This document shows positions 27,068-32,422 of a stretch of 64,000 nucleotides of DNA, one piece after another. Under the pieces are notes generated by a model that saw only the letters and a program-made list of their open reading frames with translations, was not told the origin of the DNA and ran no database searches. The stretch's first letter is position 1. The number at the start of each line of letters is the position of its first letter. The position numbers and the translations under genes are program-made. Source of the stretch: Ichthyophthirius multifiliis (taxonomy: Eukaryota > Ciliophora > Oligohymenophorea > Hymenostomatida); assembly GCF_000220395.1 (NCBI RefSeq), contig NW_004086072.1, positions 1 through 64,000 on the forward strand. Direction: 5' to 3'.

Positions 27068-27614
27068 TATTATATTATTGTTTTTATAATTATATTTTTA
27101 CTTTTTATTTTTTTTAATTTTAAAAAATATTAATTTTAAAAACTTAATATTAGTAAACTTTGGAAGATTTCAATATAAATTTTTAAGCTTAATTTTAGTG
27201 ATTATATATGCAATAAAATTTTCATTAATTAATATTCACTCCATTATTTTTATATATTTGATTTTTCTGTAATTTTTTTAAAAAAACTTAATAATAAAAA
27301 AAGCAAAAAAAAAAATATATATATAGCAGCTTTTTTTATTTTGATTAATTTTTCTAAAAAAAAATATGGATAAATGATATATAAGTTAGGAAAATTTTTA
27401 TTTAAAATGATTATAATTTTAATATAAATTAAAAAATATAATAGTGATAAGCTAACATTTTATATAAAAATTAATCAATTATTTACATAAAAAATATTTA
27501 AATATTTTATATATAATAAAAGTATTATTCAGCATATTCTAAAGAAAGGAGAAAAATATAACTCAAAATAATAAATTAGATAAGAAAATTTAAATAATAA
27601 ATATTAAAATATAA
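27068..27614. other. Divergent spacer
   Basis: A/T-rich region between two genes transcribed away from each other, so it should hold both promoters. No element identified. Confidence 0.4.
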
Positions 27615-28655
27615 ATGAAGAATTATAAAGTTGCTTTAAAGGAGCCAGATGAACCTCCAGACGATGAATTAATATTTAAAGGAGTTTATTTTAATCCTCA
27701 CGGTCCTCCATAAGAATTTATAGATTTAAAATAACAAAATAAAAGTGATAAGTAAAAAAAGCTAACAGATATGTATAAGAAGCTAATATAAAAATAAGAG
27801 TAATTTTTGTTATAAAATCAAAACAAAGAATCAACAATAAAAAAAGTGAATGAAGAATAAAATAATAAAAAAGATTAAAATTGTTAATAGAATAATTATT
27901 AATAAAAATAATATAATAGATATTAATAATAGAACAAAAATAAATAAATAGGATTAATTTAAAATAATAATGATAATACTTAAAATTCTAGTAATTCTGT
28001 ATTAAATCCAAATCTAAAAAAAAATCTTAAAGAATATGAAATTGAAAGAAATACAAATTTTAATAAAATAAATAAAAATAAGTAAGAGATTAATAATTTT
28101 AGCAATATAGAATAATATTCCTAAAAACAACCGAAACAAGAATATTAATAGAAAAACTCTTAAAATTAAAGAAAATACAAAAAACAATTTAATTCTTAAA
28201 ATTTAAATTAGCATATAGTGCAAAAAAAAATCTAATATTAAGATAAAACATTAATTACAACGCAAATAAATTTTTAAAATGAACTTTTAGAAGATGATAT
28301 AGAAGAGATAGACATTCCAATTATTTCTTAAAATTAAATTGAATAAAAATAAACTATCAACTAAAATGCATATTATGATTTTTAAAATATAAAATAAAAT
28401 ATTTAATATAATAAAGTCTTTGCAAAAATATTAAGCATAAACTAATATCCAATATAAAATATAAGTTTATAGATACTTTAAATTGAAAATTGTTGTTAAG
28501 AAATTTGTAATTTGAATTTAAAATAATATAACACATATGGAATATTTTAAGATAAAAATTAATTTTTATAAGAAAACCAACTAAAATATTTATTTTTTAA
28601 TTAATTTGATTTACAAAATAATAATTTGATTTTATATATTTAAGAATTTTAATGA
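27615..28655 (+). CDS. Gln/Asn-rich hypothetical protein
   Basis: An intronless reading frame of 346 residues, ATG to TGA. The first 40 residues look folded and conserved (VALKEPDEPPDDELIFKGVY then FNPHGPPQEFIDL). The rest is dominated by Gln, Asn and Lys, with most Gln encoded by TAA. There are short acidic patches (NELLEDDIEEIDIPIIS) and a cysteine-bearing segment near residue 300 (IENCCQEICNLNLK). No signal peptide or membrane span. The N-terminal proline-rich acidic block could be a binding motif for a partner, but I know no matching family. Confidence 0.65.
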
Positions 28656-28789: not shown

Positions 28790-29173
28790 TCATTAATTAA
28801 TTTAATTTAAATCAATTTTTTCTTTTTATTTTTTTTATTAACTTAATATATTAACATGATAAATTTATTTTTGAAAATATTTTTAAAGGCAACTATTATA
28901 ACAAGATTTTTTAAAAAAATAGATTTTACTTTTTTTATCCTAAACATAGTATTAAGGTTTTTGCTAAATGCAATAATCACACCAATCAAAGTTAATTATA
29001 TTATTAATTTGTTATTCTAAACGATGAATTTATTTTATTAAACTCTACTTTTTTTCTTTGTAGAGGTTTTAATTGTATTGTGGTGATAATTAATTTTGTA
29101 ATTTTAATATTAATGCATCTTAATCCTTGATTTTTAAATTTAAATTATCAATTTCTTTCTGTTAATCTTTCAC
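28790..29173 (-). CDS. C-terminal part of a coiled-coil gene (5' part uncertain)
   Basis: On the minus strand an open frame of 128 codons ends in TGA at 28790-28792. It begins, within what is probably an exon, with QKEIDNLNLKIKDQDALILK and QNQLSP, a leucine-heptad coiled coil. It continues IKQIHRLEQQINNIINFDW, CDYCIQQ, and a basic Gln/Lys-rich tail. There is no ATG in this exon. The upstream exons appear to lie in the duplicated contig ends that follow. In the second copy, minus-strand frames inside the 431-bp segment (ATG at 30406; SELNKLEIRKQIIEKK; EQQIIEKLISEIPQQLK) have the same coiled-coil character and may be its N-terminal exons. Gene structure is therefore confounded by the assembly join. 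Confidence 0.5.
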
Positions 29174-29772
29174 AATTTATTATTTATTTATATTAACTTT
29201 AATTTTATTTAAAAATAAATAAATAAATTAAAATAATAGGCATTAATAAATTATATTTAACATAGATTTAATATTATATTATAGTGAAAAAAACAAATTA
29301 GTTTTTAGAAAATTATTAAAATAGCCAATCTAAAAATTATAATATTGCTTATTCAAATTCATTAGCTTTTTATATTTAAAATGCATTTTCTTACATTTTT
29401 TTTATTATTATAATATATATTATTTTAAAAAAAAATTAAAACAAAAGAAAAAAAAAGAAAAAAAAAGAAAAAAAATAAATAAATGATAAAATAAAATAAT
29501 ATAGCACATCTCTAACAATAATGCCAATAATAATAAAATCATTAATAAATTTTTATACAATAAATGAAATATTAAAAGTAGAATTACAAACAAAAACAAA
29601 ATTTTGTAAAAAAAGGGAAATTATTAATGAATTGTGATGGTAAATAAGATTTTAATTTTTTTAAAAATATATTTTTACATGTTTTAAAAAATAAAATAAA
29701 TATAATAAGGAATAAAATTTATTGTATATGATTACTATAAACTAATAAAGACTATTGGAAGTGGAGCTTATG
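29066..29772 (+). repeat. Contig-end copy A of a duplicated locus (431-bp segment absent)
   Basis: This 707-bp sequence reappears at 29794-30930. Outside the 431-bp segment the two copies agree base for base as far as I compared, and their lengths differ by exactly 430 bp. It ends directly at the N gap in the MAP-kinase reading frame (GGAGCTTATG). Best read as the end of one contig overlapping the start of the next. Confidence 0.9.
29627..29772 (+). pseudogene. Truncated copy of the MAP-kinase 5' end
   Basis: Same ATG, first intron and beginning of exon 2 (to IGSGAYG) as the full gene at 30785, cut by the N gap. It is an assembly duplicate, not a second gene. Confidence 0.85.
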
Positions 29773-29793
29773 NNNNNNNNNNNNNNNNNNNNN
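29773..29793. other. Assembly gap, 21 N
   Basis: Run of N between two overlapping contig ends. The true distance is negative: the flanks overlap by about 0.7 kb. Confidence 0.99.
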
Positions 29794-30930
29794 GTTTTAA
29801 TTGTATTGTGGTGATAATTAATTTTGTAATTTTAATATTAATGCATCTTAATCCTTGATTTTTAAATTTAAATTATCAATTTCTTTCTGTTAATCTTTCA
29901 CAATTTATTATTTATTTATATTAACTTTAATTTTATTTAAAAATAAATAAATAAATTAAAATAATAGGCATTAATAAATTATATTTAACATAGATTTAAT
30001 ATTATATATTATATACTTATATATAATTTTATACGTAGTTTTTCTTTTAATTGTTATGGAATTTCAGATATTAATTTTTCTATTATTTACTATTCTTAAT
30101 TCTAATAGTTTTATAATTGAAAATTAAAGATTTATACTTTATTATCGAAATATTGATTACAATAATAATTCATAATTAAAGATATTGATTATAGAAAAAA
30201 TAATAGAAATGTTTTTTAACTTATTTCATTTTGTAATACATAATATAGTAAAAATAAAAACAAAGCTAAATTAATAAATTTAAATAGCTACATTAAAAAT
30301 TAGCATATATCAATTTTCTTCTCAATTATTTACTTCCTTATTTCTAACTTATTAAGTTCTGATTTAATAGCTTTAGTCAAATAGGTTGATTATTTTTCTG
30401 AGCCATAGCTCAAATAAAAAACACAAATAAGTATACACATAGTGAAAAAAACAAATTAGTTTTTAGAAAATTATTAAAATAGCCAATCTAAAAATTATAA
30501 TATTGCTTATTCAAATTCATTAGCTTTTTATATTTAAAATGCATTTTCTTACATTTTTTTTATTATTATAATATATATTATTTTAAAAAAAAATTAAAAC
30601 AAAAGAAAAAAAAAGAAAAAAAAAGAAAAAAAATAAATAAATGATAAAATAAAATAATATAGCACATCTCTAACAATAATGCCAATAATAATAAAATCAT
30701 TAATAAATTTTTATACAATAAATGAAATATTAAAAGTAGAATTACAAACAAAAACAAAATTTTGTAAAAAAAGGGAAATTATTAATGAATTGTGATGGTA
30801 AATAAGATTTTAATTTTTTTAAAAATATATTTTTACATGTTTTAAAAAATAAAATAAATATAATAAGGAATAAAATTTATTGTATATGATTACTATAAAC
30901 TAATAAAGACTATTGGAAGTGGAGCTTATG
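29794..30930 (+). repeat. Contig-start copy B of the duplicated locus (431-bp segment present)
   Basis: Begins at the same base as copy A (gttttaattg) and ends where copy A ends. It carries the extra segment 30008-30438. After it the MAP-kinase gene continues uninterrupted. Confidence 0.9.
30008..30438. other. 431-bp presence/absence segment, candidate internal eliminated sequence
   Basis: In copy A the sequence passes from aatattatat through a single t to atagtgaaaa (29271-29290). In copy B those same flanks are separated by 431 bp. A perfect 9-bp inverted repeat lies four bases inside each end: TATACTTAT at 30012-30020 and ATAAGTATA at 30427-30435. TA-rich direct repeats surround both junctions. 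This is the geometry of a ciliate IES seen in retained and excised form. The segment is not junk in content: on the minus strand it holds protein-like frames of coiled-coil character belonging to the 28790-30406 gene. Excision would thus remove part of a gene. Alternatives are an ordinary indel allele, a germline-contaminant contig, or a misassembly. Confidence 0.6.
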
Positions 30931-32422
30931 GAGTAGTATGTAGTGCTATAGATTAAAGAACTGGATAAAAAGTAGCCATAAAAAAAGTAAAATATTAAAT
31001 TAAAAAAAAGAAAAATATAAAAAGATATTATTTAATATTATGAAAATGATTAAATTTTATTATTACATTGTTAATATTCTTTTAATTTTAAATAAAATTA
31101 TTATAAAAATATTAATTATAAATAAATTATTATAATAAAATATATTCTAATTATTTTAATAATTTAATTTATAACAAAAAAAAAGATTTAAGATACTTTT
31201 AAAGACCCTATAGATGCTAAAAGAGTATTAAGGGAAATTAAACTTTTGAGTAAAAACTATAATAATTAATTTATTTTATTTTATAAAAAGACTTTTTTAA
31301 ACACAAAAATATAATCCAAATTATTGATTTAGTAAGACCAGATTTTTGTACAGGTTATTAGGATATATATCTAATTTTAGAATTCATGGATACAGATTTA
31401 TAAAAAATAATATATTCAGCATAACAAATAACACAAAAAATGACAAAATATTTAATGTGGTAGCTTTTAAATGGCATATACTATATGCATTCAGCAAATG
31501 TAATACATAGAGATTTAAAACCAAATAATATTCTCTTATAAAAAAATTGTACTTTAAAAATTGCAGATTTAAATTTAGCTAGAAAATTTGAAAATATTGA
31601 ATATATAACAGAGTATAATATTTAAGTATACTCTTAAATCTCATTTAAGTATATATATATATAAAATTGTTTTTCCTATTTTTTTGTATTTTTAAAAATA
31701 AAAAATAAACAAATCTTCTTATTAAAAAGCTATGTTGTAACTAGATGGTATAGAGCACCTGAAATATTGATTTCTAATTAAAATTATACATAAGCTATAG
31801 ATATATGGTCTGCAGGTTGTATTTTTGCAGAAATAATGGGAAAATGCCCAATTTTTGAAGGTAAAATTTTTAATAATTTTTTTTAAAAAAATAAATGAAA
31901 AAAGGTAAAGATTTTTTGAATTAATTAGATAGAATTATAGCTATTTTAGGAACTCCAGATTTAACTAAACTTTCATATTAAGTTTAAGAATATTCTGCTA
32001 AGTATATAACGCAATTATAATTTAAAAAGCCTGAAAGTTTTTTCGAAATATTTAAAAATTAAGATCCTTTAGCAATAGATTTGTTATGTAAAATGTTAGT
32101 TTTTGATTTCTAAGATAGATGGACTGCTGAATAATGCTTATATCATGAATATTTTAGTGAATATGATAAATCTTAAATTATTAAATGTGAAGATGTATTT
32201 GATTGGAAATTCGATGAAATCTTACCTAAAGTTAATCTTATTGAAAAAGCTATTTATGATGAAGGATGTAAATTTCATCCTTTTGAAGAAGATGCAACTG
32301 AATAAGAATTTTAATAGTTTTTTTAATAATAATTAAAATAAGGTAAAAATGAATAAGATAATAGTTAAGAAAATAGATAGAAAATTATTAGTTTTGGAAT
32401 GGATATTGAAAATGAAAATTGA
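30785..32422 (+). CDS. MAP kinase (TDY activation loop, DLN in place of DFG)
   Basis: Exons 30785-30797, 30868-30986, 31186-31249, 31291-31612, 31730-31860 and 31905-32422 give 388 residues, with all phases closing. Kinase landmarks in order: [14 protein letters not shown] (Gly loop), VAIKK (catalytic Lys), [10 protein letters not shown] (alpha-C Glu), [28 protein letters not shown] (catalytic loop), then [27 protein letters not shown] (activation loop with TxY = TDY) and [13 protein letters not shown]. These are MAPK-specific (CMGC insert, WYRAPE). Two oddities: the metal-binding DFG is DLN, keeping Asp but losing Gly, and TxY is TDY rather than TEY or TGY. The tail after residue about 330 is acidic and Gln-rich. 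The first coding exon is only 13 nt, so the start is the least certain part. Confidence 0.9.

Follow-up and report, generated by a model that had tools for sequence, protein, structure and literature searches.

Two forms of one locus upstream of a MAP-kinase-like gene in Ichthyophthirius multifiliis: a candidate internal eliminated sequence

In Paramecium, internal eliminated sequences (IESs) are excised exactly between two TA dinucleotides, of which one TA is kept, and an end consensus exists for them. For Tetrahymena, passages of one report state that 82% of the high-confidence IESs are intergenic and that nearly all are excised imprecisely; a terminal direct repeat is lacking at 28% of the junction sites there and is 1-4 bp long at 47% (PMC5182062). 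Imprecise excision is likewise described in excerpts of a further paper, where a figure legend draws full retention as one outcome (PMC10868616), while a section on inbred Tetrahymena lines gives boundary variation as very limited for most deletions (PMC6547420). For subsets of Tetrahymena IESs, inverted repeats that lie in the flanks, equally far from either end, are described. Incomplete excision is also on record for Paramecium, with a few hundred IESs affected under standard conditions according to a passage of PMC8467633.

For the fish parasite Ichthyophthirius multifiliis itself, SIGAR is the only survey of DNA rearrangement among the literature matches listed for germline, elimination, IES and PiggyBac. 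As its passages on this species put it, whole-cell reads were used to infer rearrangement junctions, the pointers of which were TA-rich; 10-bp TA runs were among the most abundant of them, and intergenic IESs were, by its own account, beyond its detection (PMC7586852). The locus treated here lies in a window of 64,000 nucleotides of I. multifiliis DNA. Its features are as follows.

29066-29279, plus strand: left flank of copy A (the short form), identical to 29794-30007 in 214 of 214 bases.
29280, plus strand: junction T of the short, excised-like form, matching neither end of the segment in a plain comparison.
29281-29772, plus strand: right flank of copy A, identical to 30439-30930 in 492 of 492 bases and carrying a truncated second kinase start (ATG at 29679).
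29773-29793, no strand: scaffold gap of 21 N between two overlapping contig ends; both copies abut it.
29794-30007, plus strand: left flank of copy B (the long form), defined by its identity to copy A.
30008-30438, plus strand: candidate IES of 431 bp, in the long form only, defined by comparison of the copies.
30012-30020, plus strand: left arm TATACTTAT of a subterminal inverted repeat, 4 bases inside the left breakpoint.
30427-30435, minus strand: right arm of this repeat (ATAAGTATA on the plus strand), 3 bases inside the right breakpoint.
30439-30930, plus strand: right flank of copy B, running into kinase exon 1, defined by its identity to copy A.
30837-32422, plus strand: MAP-kinase-like gene (protein P0001, 394 aa) with introns and with TAA/TAG read as Gln, placed by protein mapping and Pfam.

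A long and a short form of the same locus are both present in the assembly, on a single scaffold and on either side of a gap. The flanks of the two copies are identical in all 706 bases, with 0 differences, and the 431 bp of copy B stand opposite the single T of copy A, just as the initial annotation had described them. The breakpoints are unambiguous, as the maximal matches on the left and on the right do not overlap. The segment has 16.9% GC and the window 15.7%; the macronuclear genome of the species is given as about 84.1% A+T in a passage of PMC7586852. The gap is the only one in the window; the match of copy A reaches right up to it and that of copy B sets in immediately behind it, with 0 bases in between. 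The short form is continuous with the left contig and the long form with the whole right contig. The two contigs, which carry different forms, overlap by these 706 shared bases, and the assembler left them unmerged across the indel.

Short runs of N stand for negative gap estimates in assemblies. We read the apparent duplication as most probably an artefact of scaffolding, in which two overlapping contig ends would represent one locus; nothing about a true tandem duplication would make both of its copies stop at the gap. The earlier view of the copies as one locus in two states is borne out by the identity of the flanks and by contig ends that lie exactly at the gap. If the 5' region of the kinase had truly been duplicated in tandem, and one copy had lost or gained the segment, this would account for the assembly as written, which does have two copies; against it stand the end of both copies exactly at the gap, the flanks without a difference and the kinase start of copy A that the gap cuts off. 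We regard a tandem duplication as ruled out for practical purposes and give it next to no probability. The search for further gap overlaps in 267,157 bases of examined loci, some of them overlapping, returned five gap entries, all of which are this same gap.

The position of the segment with respect to the neighbouring gene can be given from the protein alignment. The kinase exons match the I. multifiliis protein P0001 with 317 bits compared to 199 for the next protein, and P0001 maps from its start codon at 30837 to 32419. The ciliate origin assumed from the letters alone was correct, the kinase being a named Ichthyophthirius multifiliis protein. The Pkinase domain (PF00069) was found in three exon pieces with 139.8, 20.2 and 29.9 bits, one of which is over the curated cut-off of 31.7. 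The start codon lies 398 bp downstream of the segment, and the segment is outside the coding exons. Removal of the segment would alter the upstream region of the kinase gene and not the kinase protein, so that the statement of the initial annotation that its removal would change a gene does not hold.

The same annotation had regarded the minus-strand frames of the segment as protein-like. One frame per strand is indeed open across all 143 codons of the segment, because TGA is the only stop in this code. Among 5,000 random stretches of 431 bp, 89.8% have an equally long frame on one strand or the other; of 2,000 sequences drawn from a first-order Markov model of the minus strand, 23.5% do as well as the minus frame. 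None of the three minus frames (one spanning the segment, one overlapping its last 29 bp, one in copy A) matched Pfam, and none of 720 candidates was a homologue of the long minus frame (part inside the segment) at E 0.001. Frames of this length are what chance gives, the long one is without Pfam or homologue match, and we rejected a coding segment. Upstream of the locus the window contains an open, Gln/Asn-rich frame in code 6 (27411-28655, plus strand) without a Pfam match, which may be either the gene of a low-complexity protein or chance.

To judge the ends of the segment we considered the inverted repeat and the junction separately. The 9-bp inverted repeat is perfect, and over 19 bp the inverted arms are 79% complementary. 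It had been placed four bases inside each breakpoint, which is correct for the left side, the offset on the right being 3. Two tests were used: the tight test demanded both arms within 6 bp of the ends and offsets equal within 2, and the loose test allowed any offset up to 12 bp. Of 20,000 draws per test at random window positions 431 apart, 0.66% contained a perfect run of at least 9 in the tight test and 6.4% in the loose one. In AT-matched draws with spacings of 300-599 the values were 0.71% of 8,000 (tight, P 0.007) and 5.7% of 3,000 (loose, P 0.057), decreasing to 0.19% and 1.3% if a G or C was required in the run. If the ends are regarded as 20-mers, the best match of 15/20 was equalled in 15.4% (3,084) of 20,000 draws (P 0.15).

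As these tests were picked after the repeat had been seen, the 9-bp inverted repeat is suggestive only as a sign of excision ends. Furthermore, 30 inverted pairs occur in the 521 bp around the segment and several are longer than the 9-bp pair: one of 25 nt at 76%, with one arm across the left breakpoint, and four of 20 nt at 70-75%; a perfect 12-nt pair lies inside the segment. With so many pairs in so short a stretch, inverted repeats as such are cheap here. Allowing up to 2 mismatches, the left-end motif occurs 2,237 times (1141+1096) in the whole genome, compared to 1,917 times (934+983) for the reversed control, i.e. 17% above it.

The plain junction has an overlap of -1, with no shared bases, no direct repeat and one extra T. 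The three bases ATA become common to both ends only when a TA unit in the left flank is counted as a second difference. The lack of shared bases and the extra T indicate that an excision, if there was one, was neither precise from TA to TA nor placed on 10-bp TA pointers. For inverted repeats in the flanks beyond the ends, P was 0.20 for the best pair of 10-mers, which matched at 9/10 positions and lay 27 and 29 bp away, and 0.62 for the best pair of 14-mers (1,000 draws each).

Compared to the described systems, the segment resembles the Tpb2-excised IESs of Tetrahymena thermophila, as they appear in parts of PMC5182062 and PMC6547420, in being intergenic, AT-rich and uncleanly joined. A junction with no or a very short direct repeat and the existence of present and absent forms are further likenesses to Tetrahymena IESs in these accounts. 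Unlike those, it possesses no significant flanking inverted repeat, and it is known here from the assembly only. With Paramecium IESs, as excerpts of PMC8467633 present them, it shares the short AT-rich segment, the TA-rich ends and a possible partial retention; in contrast to them the short form is not joined TA to TA, the bases outside the arms are gone and one T is extra. The SIGAR junctions come from the same species and are TA-rich as well (passages of PMC7586852), although segment ends that share at most ATA, and this only if one TA of a flank differs, are unlike the 10-bp TA pointers given there.

An IES seen in its retained and its excised state is a plausible account of the segment. 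More specifically, we put the probability that it is an IES which some of the macronuclear copies have kept at roughly 0.45. Developmental DNA elimination would then remove the segment from some macronuclear copies and leave it in others. The cut would be made a few bases outside the short inverted repeat in TA-rich DNA, the ends would be rejoined imprecisely with one odd T, and amitotic propagation would maintain both forms in the sequenced cells. Presence or absence of the segment would change only the region upstream of the kinase gene. Arguments for an eliminated sequence are the one clean difference between identical flanks, the intergenic position that most Tetrahymena IESs also have, the lack of coding potential, the subterminal repeat in the tight test (P 0.007), the precedents of imprecise excision and of retention in Tetrahymena and Paramecium, the SIGAR junctions of this species and the Piwi domains of its genome. 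Arguments against it are the same repeat in the loose test (P 0.057) and as a 20-mer (P 0.15), its rank as one of 30 inverted pairs, an end motif slightly above the reversed control, ends without a significant flanking repeat or 10-bp TA pointers, the limited boundary variation among inbred Tetrahymena lines and the report that PiggyBac was not detected in this species. A heterozygous indel or a plasmid-clone deletion of AT-rich DNA would give the same picture.

According to the sections of the genome paper that describe the sequenced material, the line was derived from a single tomont to minimise heterozygosity and was passaged for years after cloning; separation of the nuclei was not established, reliance being placed on a macronucleus of up to 12,000C, and either tomonts or the macronuclear fragments in lysates served as the source of DNA (PMC3341644). 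The same sections give 216,200 Sanger and 2,008,917 454 reads as contributing to the Celera Assembler run, and a final assembly of 2,274 contigs at 19x, with 49.0 Mb and gaps within scaffolds (PMC3341644). From the 19x, micronuclear DNA is expected at a depth of about 0.003x at 12,000C, and at 0.19x even at 200C. Both forms are more likely macronuclear, because micronuclear reads would be present at only about 0.003x. The years of passage are an argument against a segment retained in part of the copies, as assortment could have fixed one form.

If the macronucleus were fully excised, the long form could be a contaminating micronuclear read. Some germline contamination could not be ruled out by the genome authors in the passage concerned (PMC3341644), and a few such reads may be expected across thousands of sites. 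For one given site, a stray germline read is the poorer explanation because of the expected depth of about 0.003x; in addition, the long form runs on without a break into the entire right contig. We consider this origin very unlikely.

Two macronuclear forms would also follow from a germline indel allele, where the micronucleus is heterozygous and both alleles reach the macronucleus without any programmed elimination; one allele could have undergone a deletion, or the other could have gained a small transposon-like insertion long ago. Such an insertion would agree with the subterminal inverted repeat, and the shared ATA would resemble a short target duplication, provided that a TA unit in the left flank counts as a second difference. 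The origin of the culture from a single parasite, as given in the same part of the genome paper (PMC3341644), speaks against it, yet a single diploid can be heterozygous. Further points against it are that 0 of the 706 flank bases differ and that related full copies are lacking. The search covered 44,957,332 bases in 937 contigs, with about 4 Mb of the published 49.0 Mb outside this set, and since simple repeats are skipped its match counts are lower bounds. In this set the search detected no further copy over the full length of the segment. The other matches (at least 5) are partial, 67-80% identical over 66-221 bases; of such matches the left flank has at least 15, and the right flank at least 61 (40 of 122 candidates scored). 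A repeat family or MITE with related copies is not supported, the only full-length match of the segment being to itself. Taken together we judge a germline indel allele to be somewhat unlikely.

Finally, the cells may hold one form only, and the other may have arisen in cloning or finishing, by a plasmid-clone deletion of AT-rich DNA or by a chimeric finishing read; either the short junction of copy A would be false or the segment of copy B would be extra. The locus lies at a gap of the kind at which, by the account of gap closure in the genome paper, plasmid end reads and primer walks on gap-spanning clones were used (PMC3341644), and one long read could supply either end. This explanation is less easily reconciled with the breakpoints, which show no direct repeat in the plain comparison and have matching inverted arms 4 and 3 bases inward of them. 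The complete segment is present only once in the 45 Mb searched, so it is not a chimera from another contig there. An artefact of this kind appears unlikely to us.

For the machinery encoded in the genome we report profile matches. Piwi domains gave 9 matches on four contigs (C471, C233, C662 and C796; loci L043-L046), 8 of 9 over the cut-off, with 1 of 14 control genomes matched; I. multifiliis may thus possess a small-RNA system able to guide DNA elimination. PF13843, the PiggyBac-type DDE family, had 0 matches in the genome but likewise 0 in the 14 control genomes, so that its absence says nothing by itself; PF12762 also had 0 matches, with 1 of 14 control genomes matched. Unlike the situation in Tetrahymena, no homologue of PiggyBac was detected in I. 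multifiliis according to a passage of the Blepharisma genome paper, and because of this the usual oligohymenophorean excisase may be missing from the species (PMC9942806).

The DDE_3 family (PF13358, Tc1/mariner-like) yielded 8 matches, all of them over the cut-off, with 3 of 14 control genomes matched; one contains internal TGA stops, and two are in open frames of 246 and 266 aa. The frames read in code 6 are L047:1285-2022 (C852, about 57.9-58.7 kb; E 3.5e-22) and L048:1162-1959 (C262, about 30.9-31.7 kb; E 1.6e-17). By eye, D, D and E motifs can be made out in the L047 frame. Both frames may represent either a retained transposon or a domesticated enzyme; clear transposase contamination was not seen by the genome authors (PMC3341644). 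The 9-bp end motif was absent from all four DDE_3 loci examined and from all five loci examined in total (L043 and L047-L050, about 1.5 kb on each side only). We give only a small chance to the more specific proposal that the segment is an eliminated sequence cut at a short inverted repeat in TA-rich DNA by a non-PiggyBac enzyme, e.g. a DDE protein of Tc1/mariner type with its gene in the macronucleus, in an oligohymenophorean that has lost PiggyBac excisases, the upstream region of the kinase gene then varying between cells.

The observation of two forms is real, and an IES is the leading but unproven account of it; the locus is useful as a test site and not a surprise by itself. Caution is called for where this assembly repeats a sequence across a gap, since the two copies can be forms of a single locus. 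One site with both junctions known offers a direct test of whether, how precisely and by which enzyme the parasite eliminates DNA. The candidate gains some value because a PiggyBac homologue was, in the excerpt cited above, not detected in I. multifiliis (PMC9942806). If the proposal of a non-PiggyBac enzyme were true, the locus would represent one resolved site of programmed DNA elimination without a PiggyBac excisase.
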